Source: Pareuzebyella sediminis
GTDB taxonomy: Bacteria > Bacteroidota > Bacteroidia > Flavobacteriales > Flavobacteriaceae
Direction: 5' to 3'
DNA: 64,000 nt
NCBI RefSeq assembly: GCF_008367235.1
Contig: NZ_VTZS01000004.1
Location: 124,001-188,000, forward strand
Below, piece after piece: positions 34,541 to 57,339 of the stretch; within the stretch, counting starts at the first letter, position 1; each line of letters starts with the position of its first letter. A program made the translations under genes and the position numbers. The notes below the pieces were generated by a model. The model ran no database searches. It had not been told where the DNA came from and was given only the letters and a program-made list of their open reading frames with translations.

Positions 34541-36379
34541 CTATGAAACCGTATTTCCTGCTCCTTGTTCCCAATATAAGGGTAGCGCTTCCAATACCCG
34601 CAGGCACTCTTCAAGTGGTATGGTCATACGCTGCTTTTGACTATGGGCCGAGAAAAGCTTTTTGTAATAGGCAATACCGTCGATAAGATTCTTTTGGAAT
34701 AGGACCAAGTATTTGTAGTGTTTTTCTGTAGGTTCTCTTTCGTAATCTGCAATCTGTTGTTTTAAATAATCAATGTATATTCGAAGTTCTTTGATGAACA
34801 TATTCGGCCGATCGGTACTCTCGATAATATTCTTACGTCCGTATATATGGTCGATCATAAGCTTCAAGGAAACCGGCTTAGAAAAGTAGGCCATGTTCGG
34901 GCCAGGGCATACCGATACCCCTTCGCCTTCGATTTTTGTATCTAGACCATAGGTCAATAGGGCGGAGGTACCGAGACCCACACAGGTGCATGCTTTCTCG
35001 GTCACCTTATTAAAGTGGAATTCGTATTCTTTCTTCGAAAGCCCTCTTTCTTGCAGCTCTTGTATTTTTAGATGTTGATATTGTCTTGATGCTGTACAGA
35101 GACCTTTGGTTTTGAAATCTTTATTGAGGGCTACGAATTTTTTCGGACAAGGGCTTCCCGGTTTGCCATTGATTAAATTTCTTTCTTTTTCGAGATCTTT
35201 GGTATTGCCCCTTAAACTGTGAAAGGGAATACCCAAAGGTGAGATGTTGCTCAGATAAAGGTCCTCTTTCTTCGCGCCTGCCAGTTTTTCAAGTGTGTCA
35301 CGATCAACAGTCGTCGCTTCGGGAACCAAGAGGAAAGGAGTGCCCCAACCTACAGAATCAATCTGGTAATAGTCTAACAAAAAGTGATGTTCATCAGTGT
35401 TTCCGACTCCGCCCTGTGCCGAAATTTTTAAGGACATAGGTTTGTCAGGTGCATACCTATTTTTTTGACCTAGGGCCTTGGTCAATATCTCATGTACCGA
35501 TGAACGAAGTACCTCGCGATTCTCTTTGAACTGTTCTAAAATAGGTCCTAAAAGATAACCGTCGGTTGCAAAGGCATGGCCACCACAGTTAAGGCCTGAT
35601 TCGATACGATACTCTGAAACCCATAAGCCCTTTTTTGCCAAGAATTTACCTTGAATAAGGGCAGAACGGTAGTCGCTAACCTTAAGTACTATTTTCTTTT
35701 TAGGCTCTTGATCGGGATGGGGATAAAAGTCTTCGAACTGTTCGATATAGCTATACAACCTAGGGTTCATGCCTGCAGAAAGAATCATTGAAGAGTTCAA
35801 TGTGCTATTTGCGAAACCTCTGAGTGCGGCATGCGCATCGTTGAATTCAGAAGGTAGTTTTTCCTTTTTTGAATAGTTGTCCTTATCGACTTTGGTCATG
35901 ATGTTTACGTCAATACTGCCTATTCGCATATTATCTTTTGCCCATGCAAGGAGCTCTGCAACATCTCGACCGCTGAGTAACCGTTTTTCAAATTCGGCTT
36001 TGATAGGCGCACTGTCTGGAAGCATATCGAAATATCCCTTGAAATTTTTGACCGTTTCCGTATTTTTATGTCGAAATGCTTCGAATTTCTCTTGTGCCAG
36101 TTTGTGTATGAGGTTGAGGTATGCTGTGATGCGTTTCGCCCTAAAATCTTCTGTTTTATCAGTGATTTCTTGATAAGTTTCGCCAGACTTTGCACAATAC
36201 ATTTTCCTTAATCTTTCCAATAAAATATCATCGACCAACGAGATAACCGAGTCTATACCGAATTGGGAGACCTTCAAGGGCGTATCAATCGTAAAACCGA
36301 TACCCATGACTGGAATATGGAAAGAATGTGCGTTTATCATACCAACTTTATTTGTGTCTTGGTGCTCCTCGGTAATCAT
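34541..36379 (-). CDS. Large cytosolic protein of unknown function, Cys-rich in its second half
   Basis: 612 residues, no signal peptide or membrane helix. The N-terminal 'HSFHIPVMGIGFTIDTPLKVSQFGIDSVISLVDD' and the middle 'KISAQGGVGNTDEHHFLLDYYQIDSVGWGTPFLLVPEATTVD' have the rhythm of an FMN-type TIM barrel such as nitronate monooxygenases, but this is only a fold-level impression. Cys residues are at 62, 265 (SGLNCGGH), 411, 428, 464, 466 (KACTCVG) and 491 (VCPGP), enough for an iron-sulfur or zinc site. An FNR-like site lies upstream. I do not recognise a named family. Start at ATG 36379; a later Met (residue 14) is possible. Confidence 0.65.
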   Translation of the reverse strand: MITEEHQDTNKVGMINAHSFHIPVMGIGFTIDTPLKVSQFGIDSVISLVDDILLERLRKMYCAKSGETYQEITDKTEDFRAKRITAYLNLIHKLAQEKFEAFRHKNTETVKNFKGYFDMLPDSAPIKAEFEKRLLSGRDVAELLAWAKDNMRIGSIDVNIMTKVDKDNYSKKEKLPSEFNDAHAALRGFANSTLNSSMILSAGMNPRLYSYIEQFEDFYPHPDQEPKKKIVLKVSDYRSALIQGKFLAKKGLWVSEYRIESGLNCGGHAFATDGYLLGPILEQFKENREVLRSSVHEILTKALGQKNRYAPDKPMSLKISAQGGVGNTDEHHFLLDYYQIDSVGWGTPFLLVPEATTVDRDTLEKLAGAKKEDLYLSNISPLGIPFHSLRGNTKDLEKERNLINGKPGSPCPKKFVALNKDFKTKGLCTASRQYQHLKIQELQERGLSKKEYEFHFNKVTEKACTCVGLGTSALLTYGLDTKIEGEGVSVCPGPNMAYFSKPVSLKLMIDHIYGRKNIIESTDRPNMFIKELRIYIDYLKQQIADYEREPTEKHYKYLVLFQKNLIDGIAYYKKLFSAHSQKQRMTIPLEECLRVLEALPLYWEQGAGNTVS

Positions 36380-36414
36380 ATGGGCGATGTGACCAAGGGT
36401 GCAGTTGAAAGATG

Positions 36415-36457
36415 TAAAATTGGGGCTTTTAGCCGCTTCAAAACATGATATTTGTCA
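36415..36457 (-). promoter_or_regulatory. FNR-like site upstream of the 612-residue gene
   Basis: TGATATTTGTCA at 36446-36457 (one base off a perfect palindrome core). At exactly the distance seen elsewhere the minus strand carries CAATTTTA (36422-36415), a two-mismatch version of TAnnTTTG. The predicted start near 36410 leaves about 30 bases before the ATG. This is the weakest of the seven sites. Confidence 0.45.
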
Positions 36458-36581: not shown

Positions 36582-37487
36582 TTAAAAATGTTCGGTGCCC
36601 CACTTGCTTTTTTCTTCTTTAGACCATAATGAAGGAAAAAATCTACGTTGTTGATATTTTGGATGTAGGTATTTTTTCCACTCGGAACCTCCGGTAGCCG
36701 TTTTGTTTTCACCCTTACTGTTCAGATAGTGTTCTGCGGTGCGTAGATGAACCAGAGGCCATTCGATATTGTACAAACGGTCGAATTCCCTTAATTTTTC
36801 TTTTAGGGCCTTTGAAGGCTTCGATAGTTGGAGCAGTCTGTCTTCTACCGTTTTATTCCGAACCTTTTTGGTATGGGCAACAAGGCTTTCGAGATACCTT
36901 TGTTCAAAATCAATAAGCGTCAATGTTTTTTTACCGGTTTTACGATTGAAACCCGCATCTTTCCAATATAGGTGTTCAAAAATAGCTTCGATATTGGGTT
37001 TTGTCCCCATCCTTTTTTTACCATCTTCATTGACCAGATTTTCCAAGCGGGTACAGGAAAGCTCAAGAAAACGGAACTGTGCGCTCTGAAAACCACTGGC
37101 CGGTGTCAATATAGTTCTAAAGGAGTTGTAATCGTTATAATCCATACCATCTCTCATGATGTCAAAAGATGAAATAAGCATATTCGTATAGCGAATAAGC
37201 CGCCCTATTTTTGTGATAAGGAATTTTTCGTCAAGGTCTTTTTCGTCAACGATTTGTTCGACTTCATGACGCATCATCTTTAGAAGAAGTTCGGTTACTT
37301 GATGATACATTATGAAAACGGTCTCATCTTTAAAATGTGTTCGGGGCTTCTGTAATGATAATAATGTATCTACTTCAACGTAATCCCAATAGTTTATAGG
37401 TTTGGAATGGTAAAGGCCTTTGAGATAGGTTTCATGGTTTTCTCCCAGGTCACTATACTTTTTTTCGATTTTCTTGTTTATATCCAA
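36582..37487 (-). CDS. Tryptophan 2,3-dioxygenase-like haem protein
   Basis: 301 residues. The TDO signatures are present: 'FIMYHQVTELLLKMMRHE' with His62 (distal His in TDO), 'SGFQSAQFRFLE' (131-142), 'LVHLRTAEHYL' with His247 aligned to the haem-ligating His, and 'TATGGS' (263-268) for the family GTGGS. Family members open the indole ring of tryptophan to N-formylkynurenine with O2. It is the third gene after the CoA-transferase and truncated haemoglobin; the start is a TTG codon, the only one available before the preceding stop. No other kynurenine-pathway gene is nearby, so the substrate is uncertain. Confidence 0.8.
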   Translation of the reverse strand: MDINKKIEKKYSDLGENHETYLKGLYHSKPINYWDYVEVDTLLSLQKPRTHFKDETVFIMYHQVTELLLKMMRHEVEQIVDEKDLDEKFLITKIGRLIRYTNMLISSFDIMRDGMDYNDYNSFRTILTPASGFQSAQFRFLELSCTRLENLVNEDGKKRMGTKPNIEAIFEHLYWKDAGFNRKTGKKTLTLIDFEQRYLESLVAHTKKVRNKTVEDRLLQLSKPSKALKEKLREFDRLYNIEWPLVHLRTAEHYLNSKGENKTATGGSEWKKYLHPKYQQRRFFPSLWSKEEKSKWGTEHF

Positions 37488-37499
37488 AATAGGTTGGGC

Positions 37500-37901
37500 T
37501 TATTTATTTCTGTGCCGATAAATTTCTAAGAATAACATAGTGCTCATTTTTTGAGCCCTGTTCTTGGCGATCCAAGCCCTCTCTCCCTCAAAAAGGCTGT
37601 CTATGGTCTCAAACCAAAGATTTAGCCAGAGCCCAAAATGTTCGGATGTAATGGTCTGGTTCATCTTCTTATCAACTTCTTGATGCTTGGTTATAGGGTT
37701 GCCTTGATATTTTCTTTTCAAGAAGAGTTGGGTTTCCCAAAAATCAGTCAAGAGTTCAAAATGGCCTTCCCAATCTAAAATTATGGTATTGAAAAATGGG
37801 CCTAATTCACTGACTTTTCTGATTTTTTTGTAAAAAGAACGTACAAGCAGGGCTACATCTTCTCTACTTTCAATATTTCTCTTTGCCTGTTTATCCGTCA
37901 T
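37500..37901 (-). CDS. Group III truncated haemoglobin
   Basis: The start is ATG 37901 (MTDKQAKRN), overlapping the CoA-transferase gene by 11 bases. 133 residues with the 2-on-2 globin layout: 'VRSFYKKIRKVSELGPFF' (B helix), 'FWETQLFLKRKYQGNPITKHQ' with the likely proximal His in the F region, and 'HFGLWLNLWFETI' in the G helix, typical of group III. These globins handle NO or O2 at low oxygen tension. It sits between the CoA-transferase and the TDO-like gene on one transcript. Confidence 0.85.
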   Translation of the reverse strand: MTDKQAKRNIESREDVALLVRSFYKKIRKVSELGPFFNTIILDWEGHFELLTDFWETQLFLKRKYQGNPITKHQEVDKKMNQTITSEHFGLWLNLWFETIDSLFEGERAWIAKNRAQKMSTMLFLEIYRHRNK

Positions 37902-39165
37902 TTCTAAAACGTTGGTATGCCGATTTTTCAAGTGCTTCCCGATGATTGGGGTGGGCAATGGAAATTAAGGCCTTTGCCCTTTCCTTAAGGTTTTTCCCGA
38001 AAAGGTTGACGACGCCATATTCTGTGGCCACATAATGAACATGGGCACGAGTGGTCGTTACCCCGGCTCCTTGTTTTAAATAGGGTGTTATCTTTGAAAT
38101 TCCCTTGGCCGTAACCGAGGGTATAGCAAATATAGGTTTTCCATCGCGCGACAAAGAAGCGCCGCGAATAAAATCCATTTGTCCACCTACTCCAGAGTAT
38201 TGTCTGCTACCAATGGTGTCAGCGCAGATTTGACCCGTTACATCAATTTCGATGGCACTATTAATAGCAGTTACTTTAGGGTTTTTCCGAATAATCGCAG
38301 TATCGTTGGTGTAGCCTGCCTCCTTGAAATGCACCAGAGGATTATCGTCGATAAAATCGTATAGTTTTTGCGAACCAACCGCAAAACATGTGACTATTTT
38401 GCCGGTTTTGATTTCTTTGTCCTCTCCGGTAATCACGCCATTTTCGATGAGTGGTAAAATACCGTCGGAAAACATTTCGGTATGGATTCCCAACCGTTTG
38501 TGATTACCCAAATTACTTAATACGGCATTGGGAATGTTGCCAATGCCCATTTGCAGGGTCGCCCCATCGTCGATAAGATTTGCAATGTTTTTGCCGATCG
38601 ACTGTTCGATAGTTGAAATAGGTGCTATATCATGTGTATGAATGGGAACACTAACTTCTATGGCACAATCGATCTTGTCGATATGGATGATACCGTCGCC
38701 ATGGCTTCTAGGAATAAAGGGATTGATCTGTGCGATAACTTTCTTGGCCGTTTGAACAGCAGGTAATGTTACATCTACGGAAACCCCTAAAGAACAAAAT
38801 CCGTGCTTGTCAGGAGGGGAAACCTGCACCATGGCGACATCTAAGGGTAAGATATGCTTTCGGAACAATAGATGTATCTCGCTTAAAAAAATGGGAATAT
38901 AATCACCGTACGAACTATTCACCATACCCCGCACATTGCCACCAACAAAGCAACTGTTCATACGGAAGGTCTTATTATAAGGTTCGCGGGTATATTTGGC
39001 ATCTCCTTCAGTATGAATAGAAACTATTTCTATATCCTCTAGTTCATTATACCGTTCGCATAGGGCATCGATCAGGGTGTTCGGGGTCATTGCTGCACCT
39101 TGAAAGAATACTCTATCTCCTGATTTTATCATTGATACAGCCGCTGCTGTCGAAACTATTCTCAT
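37891..39165 (-). CDS. Acetyl-CoA hydrolase / CoA-transferase family protein
   Basis: 424 residues of the Cat1/4-hydroxybutyrate CoA-transferase family. The start is at ATG 39165 (MRIVSTAAAVSMIKSGDRVFFQG). The catalytic Glu is expected in 'AINSAIEIDVTGQICAD'. The C-terminal 'GAGVTTTRAHVHYVATEYGVVNLFGKNLKERAKALISIAHPNHREAL' is the family end signature. It moves CoA between acetyl-CoA and other short acids, or hydrolyses it. First gene of a three-gene operon under an FNR-like site, so a fermentative or low-oxygen role is plausible. Confidence 0.9.
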   Translation of the reverse strand: MRIVSTAAAVSMIKSGDRVFFQGAAMTPNTLIDALCERYNELEDIEIVSIHTEGDAKYTREPYNKTFRMNSCFVGGNVRGMVNSSYGDYIPIFLSEIHLLFRKHILPLDVAMVQVSPPDKHGFCSLGVSVDVTLPAVQTAKKVIAQINPFIPRSHGDGIIHIDKIDCAIEVSVPIHTHDIAPISTIEQSIGKNIANLIDDGATLQMGIGNIPNAVLSNLGNHKRLGIHTEMFSDGILPLIENGVITGEDKEIKTGKIVTCFAVGSQKLYDFIDDNPLVHFKEAGYTNDTAIIRKNPKVTAINSAIEIDVTGQICADTIGSRQYSGVGGQMDFIRGASLSRDGKPIFAIPSVTAKGISKITPYLKQGAGVTTTRAHVHYVATEYGVVNLFGKNLKERAKALISIAHPNHREALEKSAYQRFRNDG

Positions 39166-39309: not shown

Positions 39310-40014
39310 TCAATTATGGCATTCCATCTCCGCAGAAACGACTTCTGTTATGGGTTTTGGGGAAAGGTATGGAATTCCGAGCCCTAACCCTCGTAAAATA
39401 AAGAGCGTTCCGATAACCACGACGAAAAAGGGAACCAATTTGCGCACGCGATGGCGCATCTCTCCTTTTAATAGATTACTAAAATAGATGGCCGTACTCA
39501 TCAAGGGAACAGTTCCTAGGCCAAAAAGCACCATATAAAGACTTCCCTGTAAAGCACTTCCCATGGCTATGGCTCCGAACAGGGCCATATAAACCAGTCC
39601 ACAGGGAAGAAATCCGTTTAAAAAACCGATGGTCAAGAAGGTGTCGGGGGACTTTTTTTTAAGTTCTTGGCCCAATCGGTTTTTAATATGCGCAATTCCT
39701 TTATAGAGGGGTTTCGAAAGATTGTATTTGTTGAAGGTTTTATACGGAACCAGCACGACTATAATCATCAAGATGCCGATGGCCAAGGATAGTTTTTGCT
39801 GCATCCCGAATATAAAGAGCCCCTTTCCCAATAGTCCGAAAACGAGACCAATAATACCATACGAGAACAAACGTCCGGTATGGTAAAGAGCGATTTGCCC
39901 AAACTTTTTAAAATTATTCTCACGGCTTACGGGAAGCATAAAAGCAATGGGTCCGCACATACCTATGCAATGGAGGCTTCCCAACAATCCTAATAAGAGG
40001 GCCGATAGTATCAT
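39310..40014 (-). CDS. SafE/TauE-like membrane protein (sulfite-exporter family, cbb3-associated)
   Basis: 234 residues, six to seven membrane helices. It begins with 'LLGLLGSLHCIGMCGPIAFML', the Cys/His motif of the UPF0016/SafE-like 'sulfite exporter TauE/SafE' branch found at the end of Bacteroidota cbb3 loci. It is the last gene of the ccoI-to-FixH stretch on the same strand and may help with copper or thiol supply to the oxidase; this is inferred from its position. Confidence 0.75.
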   Translation of the reverse strand: MILSALLLGLLGSLHCIGMCGPIAFMLPVSRENNFKKFGQIALYHTGRLFSYGIIGLVFGLLGKGLFIFGMQQKLSLAIGILMIIVVLVPYKTFNKYNLSKPLYKGIAHIKNRLGQELKKKSPDTFLTIGFLNGFLPCGLVYMALFGAIAMGSALQGSLYMVLFGLGTVPLMSTAIYFSNLLKGEMRHRVRKLVPFFVVVIGTLFILRGLGLGIPYLSPKPITEVVSAEMECHN

Positions 40015-40079
40015 GGCATAACTTTTTCAACTATTTTCTATACAGGAAATTTTTTTTAACCCATTTTATACAGAACGTA

Positions 40080-40526
40080 TTAATACATGATGCTTTCTTT
40101 ATGCAAGAAGTTCTTTCCCTGATGCTCCCATGTAATTTTTATGTCCCAACGACCATCCAAAAGCTGTTTGTCAGGTATGAGCAAATGTGAATTGGATAAA
40201 CTTATGGGTAAGTCAAAATCCAAGTGCTTGTTGGATGGTCTATATAGGGACACTAAACCAGTTGAGCTAGTTGGTTCGCTTCCGTCCGGGAAGGTCACCA
40301 GTAAACCTTCTGATGTTTTTTCTATTTTAAGCCTATTTTCCAGGTTGTGGGCATTGATTTCGGCATCGATTTCTTTTTGATAACCGAGTTCGGCCTTATA
40401 GTATTCTTCAGTGACCAAATCGTGGTCGGCTCGATGATCCGTTGCCATTCGAACAACGAAGAACATGATAAAAGCTATAAACCCTACAAAAGCTATTACG
40501 ATACCAATTCCCCAGTTAAATTTCAT
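40080..40526 (-). CDS. FixH/CcoH-family protein
   Basis: 148 residues with one N-terminal membrane helix ('WGIGIVIAFVGFIAFIMFFVVRMAT') followed by the FixH motif 'DLVTEEYYKAELGYQKEIDAEINA' and a beta-rich periplasmic domain. FixH/CcoH is needed for stable cbb3 oxidase assembly. It follows ccoG by 53 bases. Confidence 0.85.
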   Translation of the reverse strand: MKFNWGIGIVIAFVGFIAFIMFFVVRMATDHRADHDLVTEEYYKAELGYQKEIDAEINAHNLENRLKIEKTSEGLLVTFPDGSEPTSSTGLVSLYRPSNKHLDFDLPISLSNSHLLIPDKQLLDGRWDIKITWEHQGKNFLHKESIMY

Positions 40527-40579
40527 ATTGTCCGTTTTTTGCCATCAAGCTCAATCTGATGGGCATTTACTCATTCTTT

Positions 40580-41998
40580 CTAATTATAACTTCTCGGTGC
40601 TAGAAAACGCGCAGAGGTAGTTTCGATCAATTCATTGTCACTGTAAATTCCTATTTTGAGTTTGTCTTTGTCGCCATTCAAGGCGGCAGCATTGATTTCT
40701 ATAAATAAGGTGCCCTCAGATAGGGCCTCTGCCGGTACCTCGAAATTTTGTTGTGGCACCAGTTTAATATTTCCCTTATGCGATAGAAGTTCAAAATGTA
40801 CATTGTCTATATTACTCGTAGTCTTGTTCAGCAGTTTATAGGTATATACATTGCTGATTATATTTCCTTCCTTGTGCTCATATAACTGCCCAGGCAGTCT
40901 CAGAATATTGGCCTCAAGATCGTTCCTCAGAAAAAGCATTCCTATCAATACGCCCGTTAAAATGATCAAAACAGCCGTATACCCCTTTAACCTGGCCGTG
41001 AACTTGAATTTCTCCTTTTTGGTAATTTCATCTTCACTAGCATATCGTATGAGCCCTTTGGGGAGGTCGACTTTTTCCATGATGGTGTCACATTCATCGA
41101 TACAAGCCGTACAGTTTACACATTCGAGTTGCGTTCCGTTTCTAATATCAATACCGGTGGGGCACACGTTAACGCATTGAAAGCAGTCGATACAGTCACC
41201 GAAACCTAAGGCTTCGCGATCCTCGTTTTTCCGCCACTTCTTTCTTCCGTTTACGGCTTCACCCCTTTTGTGGTCATACGCGACGACAATCGATTTGTTG
41301 TCTAAAAGTACCCCCTGCATGCGCCCGTACGGGCAGGCTATAATACATACCTGTTCCCGAAACCATGCAAATACAAAGTAAAACACCAAGGTAAATATCA
41401 GAAGCGATACCATGGTGCTGATATGCTCGAGGGGGCCATCAGTGATATATTCGAGCAATCGGTCACTGCCGATTAAGTAGGCCAAGAACACATTAGCGAT
41501 CAAAAATGAAATGATAAAGAAAATAGACCATTTTAGAATCCGTTTTCGAATCTTTTCGGCATTCCACGGTTGGCGGTCGAGCCTGATTTGTGCTCCACGA
41601 TCACCATCTATCCAAAATTCAATTCGTCGAAAGACCATCTCCAGAAAAATGGTCTGGGGGCACATCCACCCACAAAAAATACGTCCGAAAGCAACGGTAA
41701 ATAGCGCTATGAAAACCACCCCTATGATCATCGATATTACAAAAAGATGAAAATCTTGAGGGTAAAACGGGAACCCGAAAATATTAAAACGGCGCTCTAG
41801 CACATTGAACATTAAAAACTGGTTGCCGTTAATTTTGATAAATGGCGAAAGAACTAAAAAGGCCAATAGAAAATAGCTGACATACTTTCGGTAACGATAG
41901 AATTTTCCACTTGGTTTCTTGGGAAAGACCCAGGCGCGTTTACCAGCCTCGTTTATGGTACCGATGGAGTCCCTAAAGTTTTCTTGGTCTTGTGCCAT
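40580..41998 (-). CDS. ccoG: Cytochrome c oxidase accessory protein CcoG/FixG
   Basis: 472 residues with five or so membrane helices. Two [4Fe-4S] ferredoxin motifs are present, CIDCFQCVNVCPTG and CVNCTACIDECD, preceded by 'CPYGRMQGVLLDNKSIVVAYD', the CcoG hallmark. A C-terminal immunoglobulin-like domain completes it. CcoG is implicated in copper reduction for cbb3 assembly. It lies between ccoP and fixH in the oxidase locus; a 153-base gap separates it from ccoP with no FNR-like palindrome. Confidence 0.92.
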   Translation of the reverse strand: MAQDQENFRDSIGTINEAGKRAWVFPKKPSGKFYRYRKYVSYFLLAFLVLSPFIKINGNQFLMFNVLERRFNIFGFPFYPQDFHLFVISMIIGVVFIALFTVAFGRIFCGWMCPQTIFLEMVFRRIEFWIDGDRGAQIRLDRQPWNAEKIRKRILKWSIFFIISFLIANVFLAYLIGSDRLLEYITDGPLEHISTMVSLLIFTLVFYFVFAWFREQVCIIACPYGRMQGVLLDNKSIVVAYDHKRGEAVNGRKKWRKNEDREALGFGDCIDCFQCVNVCPTGIDIRNGTQLECVNCTACIDECDTIMEKVDLPKGLIRYASEDEITKKEKFKFTARLKGYTAVLIILTGVLIGMLFLRNDLEANILRLPGQLYEHKEGNIISNVYTYKLLNKTTSNIDNVHFELLSHKGNIKLVPQQNFEVPAEALSEGTLFIEINAAALNGDKDKLKIGIYSDNELIETTSARFLAPRSYN

Positions 41999-42151
41999 GA
42001 TATTCTACAATTATCAATCTTAGTCCGATGAGGAAATTCGGTCCGTACTTCTTAGGTAATGGGTTTTCTTTGCTACGTTACGTGGAAAACAATCTTGCAT
42101 CTTCAAAAATCGATTCCTTATTTTTTCAAATGATGAGCTGTCCCAACCGAA

Positions 42152-43132
42152 CTATTGGATGACTGTTCCCCCGTCATCGATGGTTTTCTTGAACTCAAGG
42201 GTGTCAATTTCAACTTCTACTTTTATGGAATCGACGGGTGGTGCGTCAGTGGCCATATGTGGGTCGATGAATATCTCACCTTCCGGAGCTTTCGGGTTGG
42301 CTGGTGTGGTTCCTTGAAAATTAAGAACATAACTGGCAACCTGTGCTATTTCGGCCGGTTTAAGGGTCTGTTTCCAAGCAATCATACCTTTACCGTCCCG
42401 TCCACCTTCTGAAATCGTATTGAAGACATTTTTGATGCCGCCACCTAGAATCCAGTTTTGGTCGGTCAGGTTGGGACCTATTCCTCCACCGCCGTCAGCC
42501 ATATGGCACGCCACACAATTCGATTCAAAAATAGCCTTTCCTGCGGCAATGTCAGATGCATCAGAGAGTATCTCTACGGTGCTTGCATCTACAAGGTCTT
42601 TCGCGTTCTTCTTATATTCGGCGATTTCGGCCTCGGCCAACTTCATTTCGGTCAGGTATTCCGTATCTTGATCATAATCGTTAAAGATGTGAAAACGTAC
42701 AAGATAAATGACTCCGAAAACTATTGTCGCGTAGAACATCCATACCCACCACGGGGGTAATGTATTATCTAATTCCCGGATACCGTCGTAATTGTGGTCG
42801 AGAATGATTTCGCCTTCTTTTTCAATAGGCTTTGAACCGAGCATCTTTTTATAGATTTTCTTGCCCCATTTCCATTCCCAGTTTTGGCTTTTAGACGCCA
42901 AATACCGTTCTTGGGCCTCTTTTGATAGGGTTTGGAACATTACATTTTCTACCGATTGCAAGATGAGCTCAATGGCTATCAGTAGTAATAATACCATCAA
43001 CATGAAGAACTGGGTTATTGGGTATTCTATGATGGCCGGTTTGTCTCCTGAATCGATAAAATATTCCATCAGTCCTAGAATGATGAAAAATAACACGGGG
43101 ATTCTAATCCACCAAGGTACGTTCGTTTTCAT
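42152..43132 (-). CDS. ccoP: cbb3 oxidase subunit CcoP with a single c-type haem
   Basis: 326 residues. N-terminal membrane segments lie at about 9-24 and 42-60, with another at 130-150 ('WWVWMFYATIVFGVIYLVRF'), which is the CcoP anchor. There is one CxxCH (C206-VA-C209-H210, then 'GIGPNLTDQNWILGG') and no second haem motif. Proteobacterial CcoP has two; single-haem versions occur in Bacteroidota. It transfers electrons to CcoO. The start ATG overlaps the ccoQ stop by four bases (ATGA). Confidence 0.9.
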   Translation of the reverse strand: MKTNVPWWIRIPVLFFIILGLMEYFIDSGDKPAIIEYPITQFFMLMVLLLLIAIELILQSVENVMFQTLSKEAQERYLASKSQNWEWKWGKKIYKKMLGSKPIEKEGEIILDHNYDGIRELDNTLPPWWVWMFYATIVFGVIYLVRFHIFNDYDQDTEYLTEMKLAEAEIAEYKKNAKDLVDASTVEILSDASDIAAGKAIFESNCVACHMADGGGGIGPNLTDQNWILGGGIKNVFNTISEGGRDGKGMIAWKQTLKPAEIAQVASYVLNFQGTTPANPKAPEGEIFIDPHMATDAPPVDSIKVEVEIDTLEFKKTIDDGGTVIQ

Positions 43133-43323
43133 AATACTTCTTCTTTAGATTGGTTGTCATTCTCTAGAGGCAGTTCGCTTACTTCTTTGATATAGCTTTT
43201 TGATGCGGTAAAGACCCACCAAAAAAGCAGTGCAAAAAAGACGAAGAAAATAAGTAGCGAAATCATCGGGTATGTGGCGATACCTTCGATACTTTCCATA
43301 TGGTTTTTTACAAATTTCAACAT
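43129..43323 (-). CDS. ccoQ: CcoQ/FixQ-like subunit
   Basis: 64 residues with one membrane helix ('MISLLIFFVFFALLFWWVF') followed by a short polar tail. The position between ccoNO and ccoP and the ATGA overlap with ccoP identify it as the CcoQ equivalent, which stabilises CcoP in the complex. Confidence 0.75.
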   Translation of the reverse strand: MLKFVKNHMESIEGIATYPMISLLIFFVFFALLFWWVFTASKSYIKEVSELPLENDNQSKEEVL

Positions 43324-43417
43324 AATTTTTATTTAGATAGGAACTCGTGAATCATGGGGCATAATGGGCTTCATGGTTTCATTTGCCCTTTTTCGAGATG
43401 ATTCGTCGTTTCTTTTC

Positions 43418-45619
43418 TTATTTGTTTTCAGTTAGCATTTCATCAGTTCCCTTTATTTTAATATCGGTGCCTAATCGCTGCAAATAGGCAATTAGTGATA
43501 CGATTTCCCTGTCGCGCATCTCTACGAAATCCAGTCCATTTTCTGCGGCATATTTCTTATCGGCTTCATAAGTCTTGGCGAAGTCAGGATCGGTATAAAG
43601 GTTTTTTTCTATTTGTTCTGCTTGAGTAGCCATGCTGGCTTGGGCATTGGCTATATCTTCTTCCGTATAGGGAACACCCAGTGAAACCATGGCTTCCATT
43701 TTAGCCTTCACCCCACTACGGTCGTGTTCGTTGCGTACCATCCATTTATAGGAAGGCATGATTGAACCTGAAGATGTACTCTGTGGGTCGTACATATGGT
43801 TCAGATGCCAGTTATCTGAATATTTACCGCCAACACGCAGCAAATCCGGGCCGGTTCTTTTGCTTCCCCAGAGGAAAGGATGGTCGTACACGAATTCACC
43901 GGCTTTAGCATACTCACCGTAGCGTTCTACCTCGCTCCTAAAGGGCCTGATCATCTGTGAATGGCATCCCACACAGCCTTCACGAATGTAAAGATCCCGG
44001 CCTTCGAGTTCCAAGGGAGTATAGGGTTTTACACTGGTTATGGTAGGAATGTTCGATTTCACGAGAATGGTGGGCACTATTTGTATAATACCTCCAATAA
44101 GGATGGCTACCGTAGCCAATATGGTCAATTGCACGGGTTTCCGCTCCAACCAGGTATGAAATGTTTCTCCAGCGATTCTATGTTTAGACACTCTGGTAAG
44201 TGGCGCGGCTTCGGCCAATTCGTCTTCTACTTTACTTCCGGATTTAATGGTCACCACAACGTTATAAATCATCACACAAGCACCGATAATGTACAAGCTT
44301 CCACCAATAGCCCGCATCCAGTACATGGGCATAATTTCGTTAACGGTCTCCAAGAAGTTACCGTAAACCAAAGTACCATCGGGGTTGAAGTCCTTCCACA
44401 TTAAGGCCTGTGTAAAACCAGCTACGTACATGGGCAGGGCATACAATATAATACCCAAGGTACCTATCCAAAAATGGAAGTTTGCCAACCCAATGGAGGC
44501 CAATCGCGTTTTGAACATTTTTGGAACGAGCCAATAGATCATGCCAAAGGTTAGAAAGCCGTTCCAGGCCAAGGCACCTACATGCACGTGGGCGATAATC
44601 CAATCACTAAAGTGTGCAATGGCGTTCACATTTTTCAGGGAAAGCATAGGGCCTTCAAAGGTCGCCATACCGTAACCGGTAATTGCGACTACCATGAACT
44701 TCAAAGTAGGGTCGGTTCGCACTTTGTCCCAAGCTCCGCGCAAGGTCAGAAGACCGTTGATCATACCCCCCCATGAAGGAGCGATCAACATCACGGAAAA
44801 GGCGACCCCGAGATTCTGGGCCCAGTCTGGCAGAGCAGAATAGAGCAAGTGATGGGGCCCGGCCCAGATGTAAATGAATATCAGGGACCAAAAATGAACG
44901 ATCGACAAACGATAAGAGTATACCGGACGATTTGCCGCTTTTGGAACAAAGTAATACATCAAACCTAAGAATGGTGTAGTCAAGAAGAAGGCTACCGCAT
45001 TATGACCGTACCACCACTGTACCAGTGCATCCTGAACACCGGCATATACCGAGTAGCTTTTCAGGGCACTTACGGGAAGTTCAAGGCTGTTGAAAATATG
45101 AAGAACGGCCACGGTTACGAAGGTGGCGATATAGAACCAAATGGCTACATACAGGTGTCGTTGGCGCCGTTTGATCATCGTACCGATGAGGTTTACCCCA
45201 AATGCGACCCAGACGAGGGCAATCGCCAAATCGATGGGCCATTCCAGTTCTGCATACTCCTTCGACGTAGTATAGCCCAAGGGTAAAGTAATTGCCGCGG
45301 CAACAATGATCAATTGCCAGCCCCAGAAATTGAAATTGCTGAGTGCATCGCTGAACATTCGTGCCTTTAGCAGGCGCTGGGTCGAATAATATACCCCGGC
45401 AAAAATGGCATTTCCCACAAAGGCGAAAATAACCGCATTGGTGTGAAGGGGTCGTAATCGACCAAAACTGAGCCATGAGATGCCATCGGTCAAATTCGGA
45501 AACATGAACATGAAGGCCAGAAGAAGCCCGACCGACATCCCTACAATTCCCCACAACATTGTCGCGTAGAGAAACTTTTTTACGATTTTGTTATCGTAAT
45601 AAAACTGCTGTACTTCCAT
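43418..45619 (-). CDS. ccoN: Fused CcoNO, cbb3 oxidase catalytic and cytochrome c subunits
   Basis: 733 residues. Residues 1-460 are CcoN: twelve or so membrane helices with the expected haem and CuB ligands His59 (LHTNAV), His206, His256/257 and His344/346. Residues about 490-733 are CcoO, with one haem c motif C549-VG-C552-H553 in 'GCVGCHSQMIRPFRSE' and the axial Met region 'GSIMPSYKWM'. A fused CcoNO is characteristic of Bacteroidota. The protein reduces O2 at low tension and pumps protons. Ten bases separate it from ccoS. Confidence 0.93.
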   Translation of the reverse strand: MEVQQFYYDNKIVKKFLYATMLWGIVGMSVGLLLAFMFMFPNLTDGISWLSFGRLRPLHTNAVIFAFVGNAIFAGVYYSTQRLLKARMFSDALSNFNFWGWQLIIVAAAITLPLGYTTSKEYAELEWPIDLAIALVWVAFGVNLIGTMIKRRQRHLYVAIWFYIATFVTVAVLHIFNSLELPVSALKSYSVYAGVQDALVQWWYGHNAVAFFLTTPFLGLMYYFVPKAANRPVYSYRLSIVHFWSLIFIYIWAGPHHLLYSALPDWAQNLGVAFSVMLIAPSWGGMINGLLTLRGAWDKVRTDPTLKFMVVAITGYGMATFEGPMLSLKNVNAIAHFSDWIIAHVHVGALAWNGFLTFGMIYWLVPKMFKTRLASIGLANFHFWIGTLGIILYALPMYVAGFTQALMWKDFNPDGTLVYGNFLETVNEIMPMYWMRAIGGSLYIIGACVMIYNVVVTIKSGSKVEDELAEAAPLTRVSKHRIAGETFHTWLERKPVQLTILATVAILIGGIIQIVPTILVKSNIPTITSVKPYTPLELEGRDLYIREGCVGCHSQMIRPFRSEVERYGEYAKAGEFVYDHPFLWGSKRTGPDLLRVGGKYSDNWHLNHMYDPQSTSSGSIMPSYKWMVRNEHDRSGVKAKMEAMVSLGVPYTEEDIANAQASMATQAEQIEKNLYTDPDFAKTYEADKKYAAENGLDFVEMRDREIVSLIAYLQRLGTDIKIKGTDEMLTENK

Positions 45620-45629
45620 AATTAAAAAA

Positions 45630-45833
45630 TTAGTCTTTTAGTTGGATTTGATTGCTATCACTTTGGGTACTACTTGTTTTCTTGGATTTGACCAGTTCGT
45701 CTTCAAAGAGCATACGCACTGAAGGAGTGTAGGAGTCATCATATTGACCACTTCTGACCGAAATGATGAAAGCGGCAAAAAAGATGACCGCAACAACGAT
45801 GCTTATGGTCAATAGCACATAAATAACACTCAT
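45630..45833 (-). CDS. ccoS: cbb3 oxidase assembly protein CcoS
   Basis: 67 residues with an N-terminal helix 'MSVIYVLLTISIVVAVIFFAAFIISVRSGQYDD', the diagnostic CcoS start followed by the conserved GQYDD-like turn. CcoS is needed to insert cofactors into the oxidase. It is the first gene of the structural unit, and its own promoter candidate with an FNR-like site lies just upstream. Confidence 0.88.
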   Translation of the reverse strand: MSVIYVLLTISIVVAVIFFAAFIISVRSGQYDDSYTPSVRMLFEDELVKSKKTSSTQSDSNQIQLKD

Positions 45834-45854
45834 ACCTTTATTTGAATTTAGGTG

Positions 45855-45897
45855 TAAAACTACATTGGGACAACGTTACTATTTATGACATTTATCA
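45855..45897 (-). promoter_or_regulatory. FNR-like site and -7 element of ccoS-ccoNO-Q-P
   Basis: TGACATTTATCA at 45886-45897, in the 73-base gap between ccoI and ccoS. On the minus strand TAGTTTTA (45862-45855) is a one-mismatch TAnnTTTG at the same 36.5-base distance. The expected start is near 45850, about 17 bases before the ccoS ATG. It gives the structural genes a promoter independent of ccoI. Confidence 0.6.
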
Positions 45898-45906
45898 TGT
45901 TAGTGA

Positions 45907-48303
45907 CTATTTTAGATTCTTTCCCAATAGGTTGGTCGCGATGGTAGTGAAAGCTACCACACTTATCGAGCTCAAAGGCATTAAGATAGCAGCTATCACT
46001 GGCTGCAATTGGCCCGTTATAGCAAAATAGAGTCCAACCAAATTATAGGCCAATGATAGCGCAAAGCTGAACTTTATGATGTTCATTGCTTTTTTTGAAG
46101 CTAAAATATAGTGATAAAGCTGATCGAATTTTGAGGCATCAAGAATACCGTCGCAGGCAGGTGAAAAAACATTAACGTTTTCCGATATGGCAATACCCAC
46201 TTCGGCTTGAGCCAATGCGCCTGCATCGTTTAAACCATCGCCGACCATCATTACCTTTCTACCTTGGTCTTGCAACGCTTTGACGAATTCAAGCTTGTCG
46301 CGTGGCTTTTGGTCAAAATATAGGGGGGTTAGTTTTGGCAGCAATTGTGCTAAACGCTCTTTTTCGCCTTCATTGTCCCCTGATACTACGGCGAGGTCCA
46401 TGGTCTTGGACATTTCATCAAACACCTTTGATACGCCCGGTCGATACCTACTGTGAAAAATATACTTTCCCTTGTAGTCGTCATTGCTACTAATATGTAC
46501 AGAAGTATTGAGCCCTTCCGATACTTGATGGTCGCCTACAAATTCTGCGGACCCTACTTTAATCTGGCTTCCGTTCTTGCTACCTTTAAGCCCTTGCCCG
46601 GTGTGCTCTTCATAATCATCCAAAGTATAGATGTTCTGCTCCGCCAACACGTTATAAAGGGTTCTGCTCAAGGGATGGTTCGAAGACCTCAATGTATTTT
46701 TAAGCAATGAGGTTTCTTCGTCGGTCAAGGGCATACCTTCGTATGTGGCGGTATGTTTGGTAGGGGTCGTTAGGGTTCCTGTTTTGTCGAAAATGGCCGT
46801 GTTTAGCTGTGCTAATTGTTCAATGGTCTGGGAGTCTTTTAGATAGAATTTTTTTCGCCCGAAAATACGGAGCATATTACCTAGGGTAAATGGTGAGGCC
46901 AGTGCAATGGCACAGGGGCAGGCAATGATGAGTACTGCGGTGAAAACATTAAGCGCCATGGTAGGTTCATAGTACAGCCAAAAGGAAGCTGCCACAAAGG
47001 CAATAGACAAAACTACCAGTGTAAACCGCTTGCCTATACTGTCGGTAAGAGTCTGAAACCTACTGGCCTTATCTTGTTGAAAAATGGAATTGCTCCACAG
47101 CTGGGTAAGGTAGCTTTGTGACACCGATTTAAGCGCCTCGATCTCTATGGAACCCCGTAGCTGTTTTCCTCCCGCGAATACCTTATCGCCGAACCCCTTT
47201 TTTATGGGTTCAGATTCGCCGGTAACAAAACTGTAATCGATTTGGGCGTCTCCTTCGACCAGTATGCCATCTACGGGTATTAGCTCTTCGTTGCGGATCA
47301 ACAATCGGTCTCCCTGTTTAATCTCGTTGACCTGAACACTTTCTTCTTTTCCATCCGCTAGTATGCGGGTGATGGCAATGGGAAAATACGATTTGTAATC
47401 CCGTTCGAAAGAGAGGAATGAATAGGTTTTTTGTTGAAAGAAGCGGCCCAACAATAAAAAGAATACCAAACCGGTAAGCGAGTCGAAAAAGCCGTTGCCC
47501 CAATCGAACAAGATTTCCAGAGTGCTTCTCAAAAAAAGCACCAAGATGCCCAAAGCTATCGGCAAATCGATATTCAACATCTTGCTTCTGATTCCTTTAA
47601 AGGCCGATACAAAATAATCGCTTCCGGCATAAAAGACCACCGGCAATGAAAAGGCGAACATCAACCAACGGAAAACACTCTCGTATTTGTTCAGCCAGAA
47701 TTCGCCGCCATCTGCAGCGCTACTCGAAAGATCGAAATAATCTGGAAAGGAGAGAAACATGACATTGCCAAATGCGAAGCCCGCAACGCCGAGTTTATAG
47801 ATTAGACTTCGGTCAACGCCCTTTTTTTTGTTTTCAATATCGTCCAAGCTTATATAGGGTTCGTAACCGATCCGAACGAGTAAAATGACCAGTTCCTTCA
47901 ACGAAATTTTAGATACGTCGTAGTTTACCCTCAGTGTTTTCTTAGGAAAATCTACTACAGAGCTCGAAATAAATGGATTGAGTTTGTTCAGGTTCTCAAG
48001 GGCCCAAATGCATGAGCTACAATGAATGTGTGGAATATAAAGGGTGATGATCTGAAGATGGCCATCATTAAATTCGGTCAGTTTTTCAACAATCGAAGGG
48101 GTGTCCAAAAAATCATACTTGCCCTCTACAAGTTTAGGGGTGGCCCCTGCAGCTGATTGAAGGTCGTAGTAGTATGATAGATCATTGCTCTCAAAGATTT
48201 CATAGACGGTCTTACATCCGTTACAACAGAAATCCCTTTCATCGAACCGCACGTGTTCACGTGCGCAATCATCTCCACAATGAAAGCATTTTTGGTTACC
48301 CAT
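45907..48303 (-). CDS. ccoI: Copper-transporting P1B-type ATPase CcoI/FixI
   Basis: 798 residues. The N-terminal Cys-rich domain has CFHC (6-9), C26C27 and C30. An HMA domain carries HIHCSSC (92-98). Membrane helices follow, including the CPC metal site (462-464, 'IACPCAIALASPF'), the phosphorylation motif DKTGT (506-510), HP (SSNHP, near 544) and a hinge GDGLND. It exports Cu+ into the periplasm for cbb3 maturation. Divergent from the fnr-like gene, with a shared FNR-like palindrome between them. Confidence 0.93.
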   Translation of the reverse strand: MGNQKCFHCGDDCAREHVRFDERDFCCNGCKTVYEIFESNDLSYYYDLQSAAGATPKLVEGKYDFLDTPSIVEKLTEFNDGHLQIITLYIPHIHCSSCIWALENLNKLNPFISSSVVDFPKKTLRVNYDVSKISLKELVILLVRIGYEPYISLDDIENKKKGVDRSLIYKLGVAGFAFGNVMFLSFPDYFDLSSSAADGGEFWLNKYESVFRWLMFAFSLPVVFYAGSDYFVSAFKGIRSKMLNIDLPIALGILVLFLRSTLEILFDWGNGFFDSLTGLVFFLLLGRFFQQKTYSFLSFERDYKSYFPIAITRILADGKEESVQVNEIKQGDRLLIRNEELIPVDGILVEGDAQIDYSFVTGESEPIKKGFGDKVFAGGKQLRGSIEIEALKSVSQSYLTQLWSNSIFQQDKASRFQTLTDSIGKRFTLVVLSIAFVAASFWLYYEPTMALNVFTAVLIIACPCAIALASPFTLGNMLRIFGRKKFYLKDSQTIEQLAQLNTAIFDKTGTLTTPTKHTATYEGMPLTDEETSLLKNTLRSSNHPLSRTLYNVLAEQNIYTLDDYEEHTGQGLKGSKNGSQIKVGSAEFVGDHQVSEGLNTSVHISSNDDYKGKYIFHSRYRPGVSKVFDEMSKTMDLAVVSGDNEGEKERLAQLLPKLTPLYFDQKPRDKLEFVKALQDQGRKVMMVGDGLNDAGALAQAEVGIAISENVNVFSPACDGILDASKFDQLYHYILASKKAMNIIKFSFALSLAYNLVGLYFAITGQLQPVIAAILMPLSSISVVAFTTIATNLLGKNLK

Positions 48304-48328
48304 ATTTCTGATTTGCTAATACCTAGCA

Positions 48329-48402
48329 CAAAATTGGGAAGTTCATGGCGCCCAGAATATGATAATTATCAGGTTTTGCTTAACTTGTAGGTATTACTTT
48401 TG
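48329..48402. promoter_or_regulatory. Shared FNR-like site with divergent promoters (ccoI and fnr)
   Basis: Perfect 12-base palindrome TGATAATTATCA at 48360-48371. To the right TACTTTTG (48395-48402) is a perfect -7 element for the Crp/Fnr gene. To the left, on the minus strand, CAATTTTG (48336-48329) is a one-mismatch -7 element for ccoI. The distance from palindrome centre to the last base of each -7 is 36.5. The regulator would therefore control itself and the copper ATPase from one site. Confidence 0.75.
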
Positions 48403-48428
48403 TTAAGTCAGGTATAATTATTTTAGTA

Positions 48429-49118
48429 ATGGAAAGCAGGTGTGAAAATTGTATAATTCGTCAATTCAATTCCTTGCGGGCTATGAGCAAAGAAGAGCTC
48501 AAGAAAGTCTCGGATTCCAAGGTCACAAAAAAGGTTAAAAAAGGCCAGCCCCTCTTTGAAGAGGGCGAAAAGCTCGATGGTGTTTTTTGTGTAAGGAACG
48601 GTGTTTCGAAACTCTCAAAACTGAGTGCTAACGGCAAGGATCAAATTGTCAAATTTGCCAGCAAAGGCGAGGTTATAGGACAGCGTTCGGTTATCGCCGA
48701 AGAATCAGTAAACCTTAGTGCAAGGGCCGTAAGCGATATGGAGGTCTGTTTCATTCCGAAAGAAAGTATTGTGAACCCGTTGCATACCAATCCTGATTTT
48801 ACCTTGGAAGTATTGCGCCATATGGCTCATGATCTCAAGGAAGCAGATGATGTTATCGTGAACATGAGCCAAAAAACGGTAAAACAGCGTATGGCGGAAG
48901 CTTTTCTCTACCTAAAAAATAATTTTGGTGAAGACCAAGATGGCTTTTTGATATTGACCCTTTCCCGAGAGGATATCGCTAATGTTATTGGTACGGCGAC
49001 CGAGTCGTGCATCCGTATCATTTCTGAGTTTAAGAAAAAAGGGTACCTGAAAACATCTGGAAAAAAAATAGGGATTACCGACGAGCGCAAACTTCAAGAT
49101 TTGGCCGAGGGGTTTTAA
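48429..49118 (+). CDS. Crp/Fnr-family transcriptional regulator, FNR-like
   Basis: 229 residues: an N-terminal CxxC (C5, C8), a cyclic-nucleotide-binding-type beta-roll (about 25-120), a dimerisation helix (130-160) and a winged helix-turn-helix (170-225). In the recognition helix 'LSREDIANVIGTATESCIRIISEFKKKG' Glu192 and Arg196 match the FNR/CRP base-contacting residues. C107 in 'MEVCFIP' aligns with FNR Cys122, but the fourth FNR ligand after the CxxC is absent; C54 and C194 are the other Cys residues. Probably an oxygen or redox sensor for the cbb3 locus and the other palindrome-bearing promoters. It is convergent with the porins. Confidence 0.85.
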   Translation: MESRCENCIIRQFNSLRAMSKEELKKVSDSKVTKKVKKGQPLFEEGEKLDGVFCVRNGVSKLSKLSANGKDQIVKFASKGEVIGQRSVIAEESVNLSARAVSDMEVCFIPKESIVNPLHTNPDFTLEVLRHMAHDLKEADDVIVNMSQKTVKQRMAEAFLYLKNNFGEDQDGFLILTLSREDIANVIGTATESCIRIISEFKKKGYLKTSGKKIGITDERKLQDLAEGF

Positions 49119-49138: not shown

Positions 49139-50473
49139 CTAGTTCAGTTGAAATTGATATTGTAGTACGAACATCCATTTTCGGCTATTCAGTCTTGGTC
49201 GTTTCTCTGAATTAGCTAAAATGGGCCTGTTTTGGGCATTGAATGTAAATTTGGATGCATGCCCCTGTAGATACCAATTCAACCCTAGGTCGAAGTGGAA
49301 AATAGGGGATGCCAGCGCTTCAAAATTCGAATATTGACCGGAAATATAGGGTTGTAATTGATTGATTGCCTTGTATCTCTGGGAGATGCCAAAAAGATAT
49401 CCCAGCTGTCCGGCAAGGGCTTTACCTGTTCCGGAAACCGGAAAGGCATTTCCCGTTCCATTAAAGGATGCCTCTTCAGGTTGTATGCCGTTAGCGGGGT
49501 TATTGGCCCCGATCAGTCTGATATAATTTGGGCCAAAATCAAAATTATAAAACCCTAGGTATACCGTAACGGCTTTTGTAGGCAAGCTTCGAAGGGGCAG
49601 GTCTAAAAATAAATCCCCTGAAAAAAGTTTCATGTGGTGAAAGGTTTCCCGGCCGTCGATTAGAGACCAAAGGGCATTGGGGCGATACGTAAATCCAGTG
49701 CCTATAGTTAGTATTTTCTTTGTTCCTAAATATGTGCCTCGATGAAAGGGGGCTTGGTTGCTTTCACTATCCCAGAATTCATACTTTACATATCCCGAGT
49801 ACTCAAGGTGCGGTCGCCGGTCGGTGAATTTAGCGGTTCCCTCTACGGGATTGGGCTCGAACAAGGTACTGTTACTCACCGATAGTGGCTTGGCCGCTAT
49901 GAAGCGGTAATCGAAGGCTCCGAGTTTTCCTTTTATATAAAGTCCAAGCTTCCGGATGAGGTCGTCGGTATTGCCTAAGGTGGGAAGGGCAATAAAACTG
50001 AGGTCGTTCATCATAAAATTTGATGAGCTTGGTGAGGTATAGCGGGATAGTCCGTTCCATGCCGATTTACCACCCCCCAGAGTGAGAAATTCAGATATTT
50101 GGTATTGTATATGCGCATCGAGCAGGTCTATGGAGGTACCTCTAGGCGATAGGTAGTTTAGGTTATTGATACCCAGTCTAAAAGTGGCCGAGACTCCTTT
50201 CCAAGGTATGGCCGAAACTGTCGCCCTGAATTTTCGGATGGAAAGATCAACGGTGTTGTTTTCCTGAATACCATTGACCGTGCTTCCCGGATTGTTTTGG
50301 TTGATACGGGTCCATAATTGAAGGTACGTGCTAAATTGGATATATGTTGTTTTCTCTTCATTCATATAATAGCGTAAGGGCTTGTTATCAAATGGGTGTT
50401 GAGCAAATAGCACATGTGTCGCCAAGATCATTTGAAATCCCAAAAAAACTAGGTACTTGTGTATAACGCTCAT
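49139..50473 (-). CDS. Porin-like outer-membrane beta-barrel, second of a tandem pair
   Basis: The start is ATG 50473 (MSVIHKYLVFLGFQMILATHVLFAQ, a signal peptide); the frame from 50509 lies in the upstream gene. The ATG overlaps the TGA of that gene by four bases (ATGA). The mature part is beta-barrel-like, with 'DLSIRKFRATVSAI' and 'NLNYLSPRGTSIDLLDAHIQY' shared almost residue for residue with the first copy, and resembles phosphate-selective-porin-O/P-like proteins. 444 residues. The final residues (QFQLN) are not the usual aromatic end, so the barrel call is moderately secure. Confidence 0.7.
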   Translation of the reverse strand: MSVIHKYLVFLGFQMILATHVLFAQHPFDNKPLRYYMNEEKTTYIQFSTYLQLWTRINQNNPGSTVNGIQENNTVDLSIRKFRATVSAIPWKGVSATFRLGINNLNYLSPRGTSIDLLDAHIQYQISEFLTLGGGKSAWNGLSRYTSPSSSNFMMNDLSFIALPTLGNTDDLIRKLGLYIKGKLGAFDYRFIAAKPLSVSNSTLFEPNPVEGTAKFTDRRPHLEYSGYVKYEFWDSESNQAPFHRGTYLGTKKILTIGTGFTYRPNALWSLIDGRETFHHMKLFSGDLFLDLPLRSLPTKAVTVYLGFYNFDFGPNYIRLIGANNPANGIQPEEASFNGTGNAFPVSGTGKALAGQLGYLFGISQRYKAINQLQPYISGQYSNFEALASPIFHFDLGLNWYLQGHASKFTFNAQNRPILANSEKRPRLNSRKWMFVLQYQFQLN

Positions 50474-51868: not shown

Positions 51869-51942
51869 CAATAGTAATACTGGAAAGTTTTTAAAAACAT
51901 GATTCTTGTCATCATTCTACCCAATACATGAAGTTATATTTG
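51869..51942. promoter_or_regulatory. Shared FNR-like site with divergent promoters (porins and DASS permease)
   Basis: TGATTCTTGTCA at 51900-51911 (one base off). Right side: TATATTTG (51935-51942), a perfect -7 element on the plus strand. Left side: TACTATTG on the minus strand (51876-51869), one mismatch. Both lie at the 36.5-base distance. The left transcript leads into the porin pair about 65 bases later; the right one starts near 51947, leaving about 139 bases before the permease ATG. Confidence 0.6.
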
Positions 51943-57271: not shown

Positions 57272-57314
57272 TGACATATATCATAGTTTCAGCATACCCC
57301 TTTGGATAATTTTG
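57272..57314 (+). promoter_or_regulatory. FNR-like site and -7 element of a universal stress protein
   Basis: TGACATATATCA at 57272-57283 and a perfect TAATTTTG at 57307-57314, with 36.5 bases between the palindrome centre and the last base of the -7. The predicted start near 57319 leaves about 21 bases before the ATG at 57340. Confidence 0.68.
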
Positions 57315-57339
57315 ATAATAGATTAAAAAAAAATTGGGC

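Follow-up and report, generated by a model that had tools for sequence, protein, structure and literature searches.

The closest described system is FabX of Helicobacter pylori (HP0773). According to the report on it (PMC8626469), this enzyme has FMN, an active-site His182 and a [4Fe-4S] cluster bound by C300, C304, C308 and C320 within a C-terminal subdomain (residues 267–363); R164 binds ACP, and O2 is required as acceptor. The same paper states that no other characterised member of the family has a cluster. Citing other work, PMC11300592 calls a relative in Neisseria essential to the synthesis of unsaturated fatty acids in anaerobic cells, with an acceptor yet to be identified, so FabX-type chemistry may serve anaerobic cells.

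Here we analyse a gene for a FabX-like protein in the window, the whole 64,000-nucleotide stretch of Pareuzebyella sediminis DNA. The reading frame (34541–36379, reverse strand) opens with ATG and contains no internal stop, and its 612 codons agree with a preliminary description made from the letters alone. It is not a chance frame, given that a genome scan found 36 loci at 47–66% identity and that, of 395 genomes sampled from the phylum, 142 (about a third) carry the family. By phylum we mean Bacteroidota in a broad sense, inferred from named relatives; the titles of the 36 loci name Bacteroidetes groups, Chlorobi, Ignavibacteria, Calditrichia and one unplaced bacterium. Within the window's own family the distribution is patchy (71 of 199 genomes, each from a different genus). 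One genome carries two full copies (G152), and another (G095) one copy together with a decayed one with several stops.

The likely true start is M14 (codon 36338–36340, reverse strand). Taking as start of each homolog the codon nearest to the match, the starts of 28 aligned homologs fall at the M14 equivalent or a few residues off, so the first 13 residues are likely untranslated and the protein is probably about 599 residues long. The alignment behind this count left out eight of the 36 loci (L007, L009, L012, L019, L021, L024, L029 and L035), and a 57-row profile was obtained by adding 28 further members hand-picked from the phylum and family loci.

Fold, remote homology and invariant residues

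The absence of any assignable family, reported from the sequence earlier, was borne out by direct family searches. The target gave no match in Pfam or NCBIfam at E up to 1, hence neither FabK (TIGR03151) nor PfaD (TIGR02814), and no pairwise match to PDB sequences at E up to 10, FabX included. For the 29 members, the best 25 of 33 families did not include NMO (PF03060), nor did an NMO search of the window's genome list the place of the target. Plasmids and viral contigs yielded no relative at the sensitivity used, and nothing in a viral structure library matched at E 0.001, the best being a phage 2-nitropropane dioxygenase-like protein (E 4e-3). Among the open-access papers listed by literature searches, no title or abstract opening names the family. 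It is widespread, and none of the libraries searched has a curated name for it. Two PHROGs reached E 0.31 and 0.42 only and gave no useful assignment; weak apolipoprotein and other helical matches to the C-terminal helices were set aside as composition.

Structure prediction was more informative. AlphaFold2 run with 29 rows gave a model of pLDDT 82.2 and pTM 0.84, least confident in the first 13 and last nine residues, which is an FMN-type TIM barrel with FabX nearest among solved structures; the barrel-like rhythm seen earlier in the sequence agrees with it. Foldseek against the PDB placed H. pylori FabX on top (entries at E 2e-8 to 5e-7), followed by PfaD (1e-7), other enoyl reductases, FabK and nitronate monooxygenases. 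With VIA-align the FabX entries reached Z 23.5–25.2, the best aligning 332 of 366 residues at 3.4 A, and PfaD-type entries 23.4 and 23.2, so that the weakest FabX entries tie with PfaD; the mycobacterial fatty-acid synthase (22.4), FabK (21–22), nitronate monooxygenases (19–21) and IMP dehydrogenase/GMP reductase (about 15.7) came behind. The best row leaves no more than 34 FabX residues unaligned, which means that it matches at least 63 of the 97 that make up the [4Fe-4S] subdomain of FabX. Folded alone, the C-terminal part of the target gave a poor model (pLDDT 64) with no structural match.

The TIM-barrel part comprises residues 18–376 (35252–36328, reverse strand) and contains the motifs HSFHIPVMG, GSIDVNIMTKVDK, IESGLNCGGH (with E260 and H268), QGGVG and GTPFLLVPEA. 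It is followed by the predicted Fe-S segment, residues 377–515 (34835–35251, reverse strand), which opens with SPLGIPF and continues through C411, C428 and C464-x-C466 to C491-PGPN.

To the homology between whole families we applied profile comparison. A FabX-like profile was merged from 22 proteins: 6 of the 16 of a 419-residue class, 11 of a 480-residue class and five FabX proteins found in the phylum, one of which was tested and matches the FabX PDB entry at E 2e-77. Against it the 57-member target profile scored 53.2 over 299 columns (probability 83%, E 9.4e-6), while none of 100 column shuffles reached the real score (best 29.1) and the reversed profile gave 24.0. Taken separately, the 419-residue class (36.7, E 9e-4) and FabX (34.7) were each matched with a score that 0 of 100 shuffles reached, and the 480-residue class with one that 1 of 100 reached (27.7, E 0.022). 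An earlier 29-member profile had given no significant match to the 419-residue class, 5 of 300 column shuffles reaching its score. The merged alignment pairs IDVNIMTK, E260, GGH268, QGGVG, GTPF, SPLGIPF, C411, C428 and C464-x-C466 with counterparts in the FabX-like proteins.

The residues that this alignment picks out are strongly conserved. E260 and H268 are invariant in 57 of 57 members and align with the E and GGH of FabX-like proteins, which in turn align with E175 and H182 of FabX; His268 (35576–35578, reverse strand) thus matches the active-site histidine of the GGH motif. Counting back from E260, which is motif counting and not superposition, K249 and K250 fall at FabX R164, and lysine is found there in 54 and 55 of the 57 members, respectively.

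The target has eight cysteines (62, 265, 411, 428, 464, 466, 491 and 592), one more than the seven given in the preliminary description, which had placed the five at 411–491 correctly. Those five and C265 are invariant in all 57 members. In the 480-residue class the pattern C...C...CxC is also invariant and aligns with that of the target, so C411 (35147–35149), C428 (35096–35098) and C464-x-C466 (34982–34990, all on the reverse strand) are predicted as the ligands of a [4Fe-4S] cluster. None of the alignments made pairs these four with the four ligands of FabX itself. C491 (34907–34909, reverse strand) is the fifth invariant cysteine of the Fe-S part; its context CPGPNMAYF resembles, by eye, the FTGANGYR/FSGANAYR that follows the last ligand of FabX, and relatives have Thr, Ser or Ala in that segment.

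Operator, regulator and gene neighbourhood

The FNR-like site claimed before the gene is present as TGATATTTGTCA at 36446–36457 (TGACAAATATCA when read on the gene strand, the reverse one), with its centre about 111 nt before M14, and is strongly conserved in relatives. Our first test, TTGAYN4RTCAA with mismatches, was little informative. Of 82 target-family loci, 37 have the shorter exact core TGAYN4RTCA no more than 300 nt from the start, against a mean of 1.5 and a maximum of 6 of 82 in shuffled upstream regions; as the core was picked after viewing those sites, this enrichment is partly post hoc. The 82 regions exclude the near-identical L007 and L021, and also L012. Four altered control patterns of the same shape, chosen after the core, were found in 0–2 of 82. 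A comparison likewise made after the choice, over 57 loci with long flanks and with near-identical loci kept in, found the site before 28 of the 55 targets that could be tested, before 12 of the 30 low-oxygen genes and before 27 of the 497 others.

The position of the site is informative as well. TAnnTTTG is the Bacteroidota -7 element, and FNR activates from -41. In 10 of the 37 loci TAnnTTTG stands 29 nt downstream of the centre of the gene-nearest site, any other single offset occurring at most twice, and this spacing puts the operator near -41. The window itself has a degenerate element, CAATTTTA (36415–36422, reverse strand), which keeps four of the six fixed letters and is spaced from the operator as in those loci. 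No promoter came out of a scan for the sigma-70 type; in Bacteroidota no promoter of that type is expected. By these counts the site is not a chance occurrence, and the FNR-like operator is conserved at what would be an activating distance from the promoter.

Across the window there are 10 exact TGAYN4RTCA sites where 4.0 are expected, and only 1 of 100 shuffles has as many. Besides the site of the target, there is one ahead of hemN (28998), a pair ahead of ccoNO (45649 and 45886), one between the genes for the FixI-type ATPase and the Crp/Fnr protein (48360), and three inside open reading frames (15221, 16179 and 35385). A further site, 51900–51911, precedes a porin ExtI-like gene (50470–51798, below cut-off), and another, 57272–57283, lies between a 6-phosphofructokinase gene (55730–57052) and an unassigned 302-residue open reading frame (57334–58242).

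The low-oxygen cluster (39310–49118) starts about 3 kb from the target and comprises, on the reverse strand, genes for DsbD-like, CcoH (FixH), CcoG (FixG), CcoP (FixP) and CcoNO proteins and a FixI-type ATPase and, on the forward strand, the Crp/Fnr regulator (48429–49118). In close relatives, and also in Chryseobacterium, Epilithonimonas and Brumimicrobium, gene order ties the target family to cbb3 genes; in Aquimarina it does so to a FixI-type gene, and in Pedobacter to HemN. The identities of these neighbour clusters are taken from the window's own genes. The commonest neighbour is shared by at most 10 of 57 loci, as would be expected of a stand-alone enzyme. Ten loci share two neighbours that look NadA- and NadB-like by eye, and in three Chlorobi loci an acyl-CoA dehydrogenase-like gene, also recognised by eye, follows the target. 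In the window, a tryptophan 2,3-dioxygenase-like protein (36582–37487; 102 bits against an NCBIfam cut-off of 391) adjoins the target, as it does in relative L089, and a CoA-transferase resembling butyryl-CoA:acetate CoA-transferase (37891–39165; 304 bits, cut-off 675) lies between the target and the cbb3 cluster.

The Crp/Fnr protein reaches 108 bits with the NCBIfam Fnr model, whose cut-off is 228. It has a CENC motif (C5 and C8) and C107; at the place where E. coli FNR has a further N-terminal cysteine it has an asparagine, and its cluster, if any, may therefore use another ligand. In PMC8510549, Crp/Fnr proteins of Flavobacteriales, Ignavibacteria and Saprospiraceae are read as MalR-like sensors of carbon, not of oxygen, a reading that counts against oxygen control of the target.

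Unsaturated-fatty-acid genes and proposed function

We compared 198 genomes, 75 carriers of the target family and 123 non-carriers, counting none of the weak NMO-type matches as FabX-like. A FabX-like relative of any of three classes occurs in 0 of 75 carriers and 50 of 123 non-carriers, a mutual exclusion confounded by phylogeny because 40 of the 50 FabX-like genomes come from one family of the sample. PF00487 desaturases occur in 58 of 75 carriers and 61 of 123 non-carriers, but the association vanishes without that family (58/80, p 0.58). For the cbb3 oxidase the association is weak (60 of 75 carriers against 86 of 123, p 0.14; 52/80 without that family, p 0.048).

FabA, at E 1e-40, was found in 3 of 198 genomes, in one of which it passes the curated cut-off. 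The window's genome is not among the three; it has one PF00487 and one PF03405 desaturase, both of O2-dependent kinds. Among the 75 carriers, 17 have no PF00487 match, and 11 of these 17 also lack a match to PF03405, FabA or a FabX-like protein. Of the 36 genomes behind the 36 loci, the analysis covered 24, several of them MAGs; eight have no PF00487 match and six of those no PF03405 match either. For some carriers, then, no candidate maker of double bonds besides the target-family enzyme turned up among the desaturases, FabA and FabX-like proteins searched for.

We tentatively propose, at rather less than firm confidence but as our leading reading, that the target, induced when oxygen is low, is an acyl-ACP dehydrogenase/isomerase with FMN and a [4Fe-4S] cluster that serves the synthesis of unsaturated fatty acids. 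It would represent a new family in the FabX/FabK/nitronate-monooxygenase superfamily, with an FMN TIM barrel followed by a [4Fe-4S] subdomain at the C-terminus. Under low oxygen, a regulator of FNR type would bind about 41 bp upstream of the transcription start and turn on the target together with the cbb3 oxidase genes. Mechanistically, His268 and FMN would take two hydrogens off a medium-chain acyl-ACP (or acyl-CoA), the double bond would then shift to cis-3 as in FabX, and the electrons would leave through the cluster to some acceptor. The product would supply unsaturated fatty acids once O2-dependent desaturases slow down. Against this proposal, the O2 requirement of FabX fits oddly with an FNR-induced enzyme.

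The same chemistry could run in the opposite direction, with the target as an FMN/[4Fe-4S] enoyl-ACP or enoyl-CoA reductase, FabK- or PfaD-like, whose cluster feeds in electrons from a ferredoxin-like donor. FabK, PfaD and the enoyl reductases of fatty-acid synthases do share the fold (Z 20–23), and the acyl-CoA dehydrogenase-like gene of the three Chlorobi loci would suit such an enzyme. We nevertheless regard this as unlikely, as the best match is FabX with its Fe-S subdomain (even if the weakest FabX entries tie with PfaD), a FabK-like gene is present elsewhere in the window's genome, and neither NCBIfam model, FabK or PfaD, matches the target. Slightly less unlikely, though still doubtful, is that this low-oxygen Fe-S flavoenzyme belongs to a different pathway, for instance of quinones, polyketides or amino-acid-derived acyl compounds, rather than of bulk membrane lipids. 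The CoA-transferase and tryptophan 2,3-dioxygenase-like genes next to the target, the NadA-/NadB-like pair of ten loci and the patchy distribution speak for it, and the lack of any neighbour common to more than 10 of 57 loci against it.

A role in detoxification, as nitronate monooxygenase or NADH:quinone reductase, appears highly improbable. The fold class is the same (Z 19–21), and the 480-residue class includes three plasmid-borne relatives, two of which bear the annotation nitronate monooxygenase, yet a monooxygenase needs O2 and the target gene has a conserved FNR-like site; moreover, according to PMC8626469 the cluster is unique to FabX among characterised family members.

Returning to the acyl-ACP dehydrogenase/isomerase, O2-dependent desaturases have no function without oxygen. 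With FabA as rare as 3 in 198 genomes and the desaturases bound to O2, the membrane fluidity of these bacteria in anoxic sediments, biofilms and hosts needs explaining. A more far-reaching version of the proposal, which we consider possible but less probable than the proposal itself, is that the family provides the missing low-oxygen unsaturated-fatty-acid enzyme of FabA-less Bacteroidota and their relatives: a further FabX-like Fe-S flavoprotein, induced by FNR, which would pass its electrons to a carrier that is not O2, would employ Cys491 and Cys265 as extra redox or active-site residues, and so would allow unsaturation without oxygen. In practical terms, a widespread FabX relative with a conserved FNR-like site, unnamed in the libraries searched, is one gene to knock out.

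Comparison with FabX and its relatives

The earlier suggestion, that the protein may be a new enzyme of anaerobic metabolism with Fe-S or flavin, finds support as regards enzyme class and regulation, to the extent that a predicted fold nearest to FabX, four aligned cysteines and a conserved FNR-like site can indicate it; fold, remote homology, invariant residues, operator conservation and distribution come from computation, whereas the cofactors, the ligands, the regulator's binding and response to oxygen, and the function, with its substrate, reaction and acceptor, we infer. That suggestion was to fall with a clear match to a well-described family of non-anaerobic function. FabX comes only loosely near to such a match. 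It is a well-described enzyme that depends on O2, but the target is not classed as FabX, because its ligand spacing differs and no pairwise sequence match to FabX was obtained.

The target shares with FabX the TIM barrel, the GGH motif, an SPxG segment before the Fe-S part and four C-terminal cysteines, and the GANAY after the last cysteine of FabX resembles, by eye, CPGPNMAY of the target. On the other hand, the target is about 240 residues longer, has the extra invariant Cys265 and Cys491, and gives no pairwise match. The cysteine gaps are also different: 3, 3 and 7–11 in FabX (C-x3-C-x3-C-x(7-11)-C) and 16, 35 and 1 in the target (C-x16-C-x35-C-x-C). In outline, however, the target probably works like FabX.

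The 480-residue class, with hosts in Deinococcus, Streptomyces, Nonomuraea and some genomes of the window's phylum, has four cysteines C...C...CxC after SPTGFPF in 11 of 11 proteins, which align with those of the target in the merged profile; it is about 130 residues shorter and, by eye, has no cysteine at the place of Cys491. The two of its three plasmid-borne relatives named nitronate monooxygenase are on Deinococcus and Streptomyces plasmids, and members of the class (L186:496-1944 and L201–L210) are possibly misnamed Fe-S flavoproteins.

The 419-residue class has GGH, SPTGYPM and C...C...CxC as in the target and itself matches FabX at E 6e-33, but is about 190 residues shorter, has six conserved C-terminal cysteines and occurs only in target-free genomes. 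These cysteines appear as NC, C, CLC and CWTC in L134–L147 and L149–L150, from two families of the sample (f18 and f16), which we would guess to be Prevotella-like and the proteins UfaA-like.

FabK, PfaD and 2-nitropropane dioxygenase/nitronate monooxygenase share the FMN TIM-barrel fold with the target (Z 19–23) and are without a [4Fe-4S] cluster, according to PMC8626469. If our proposal is true, the Fe-S branch of the nitronate-monooxygenase superfamily would be larger than FabX and would use two placements of the four cysteine ligands, that of FabX and that of the target.
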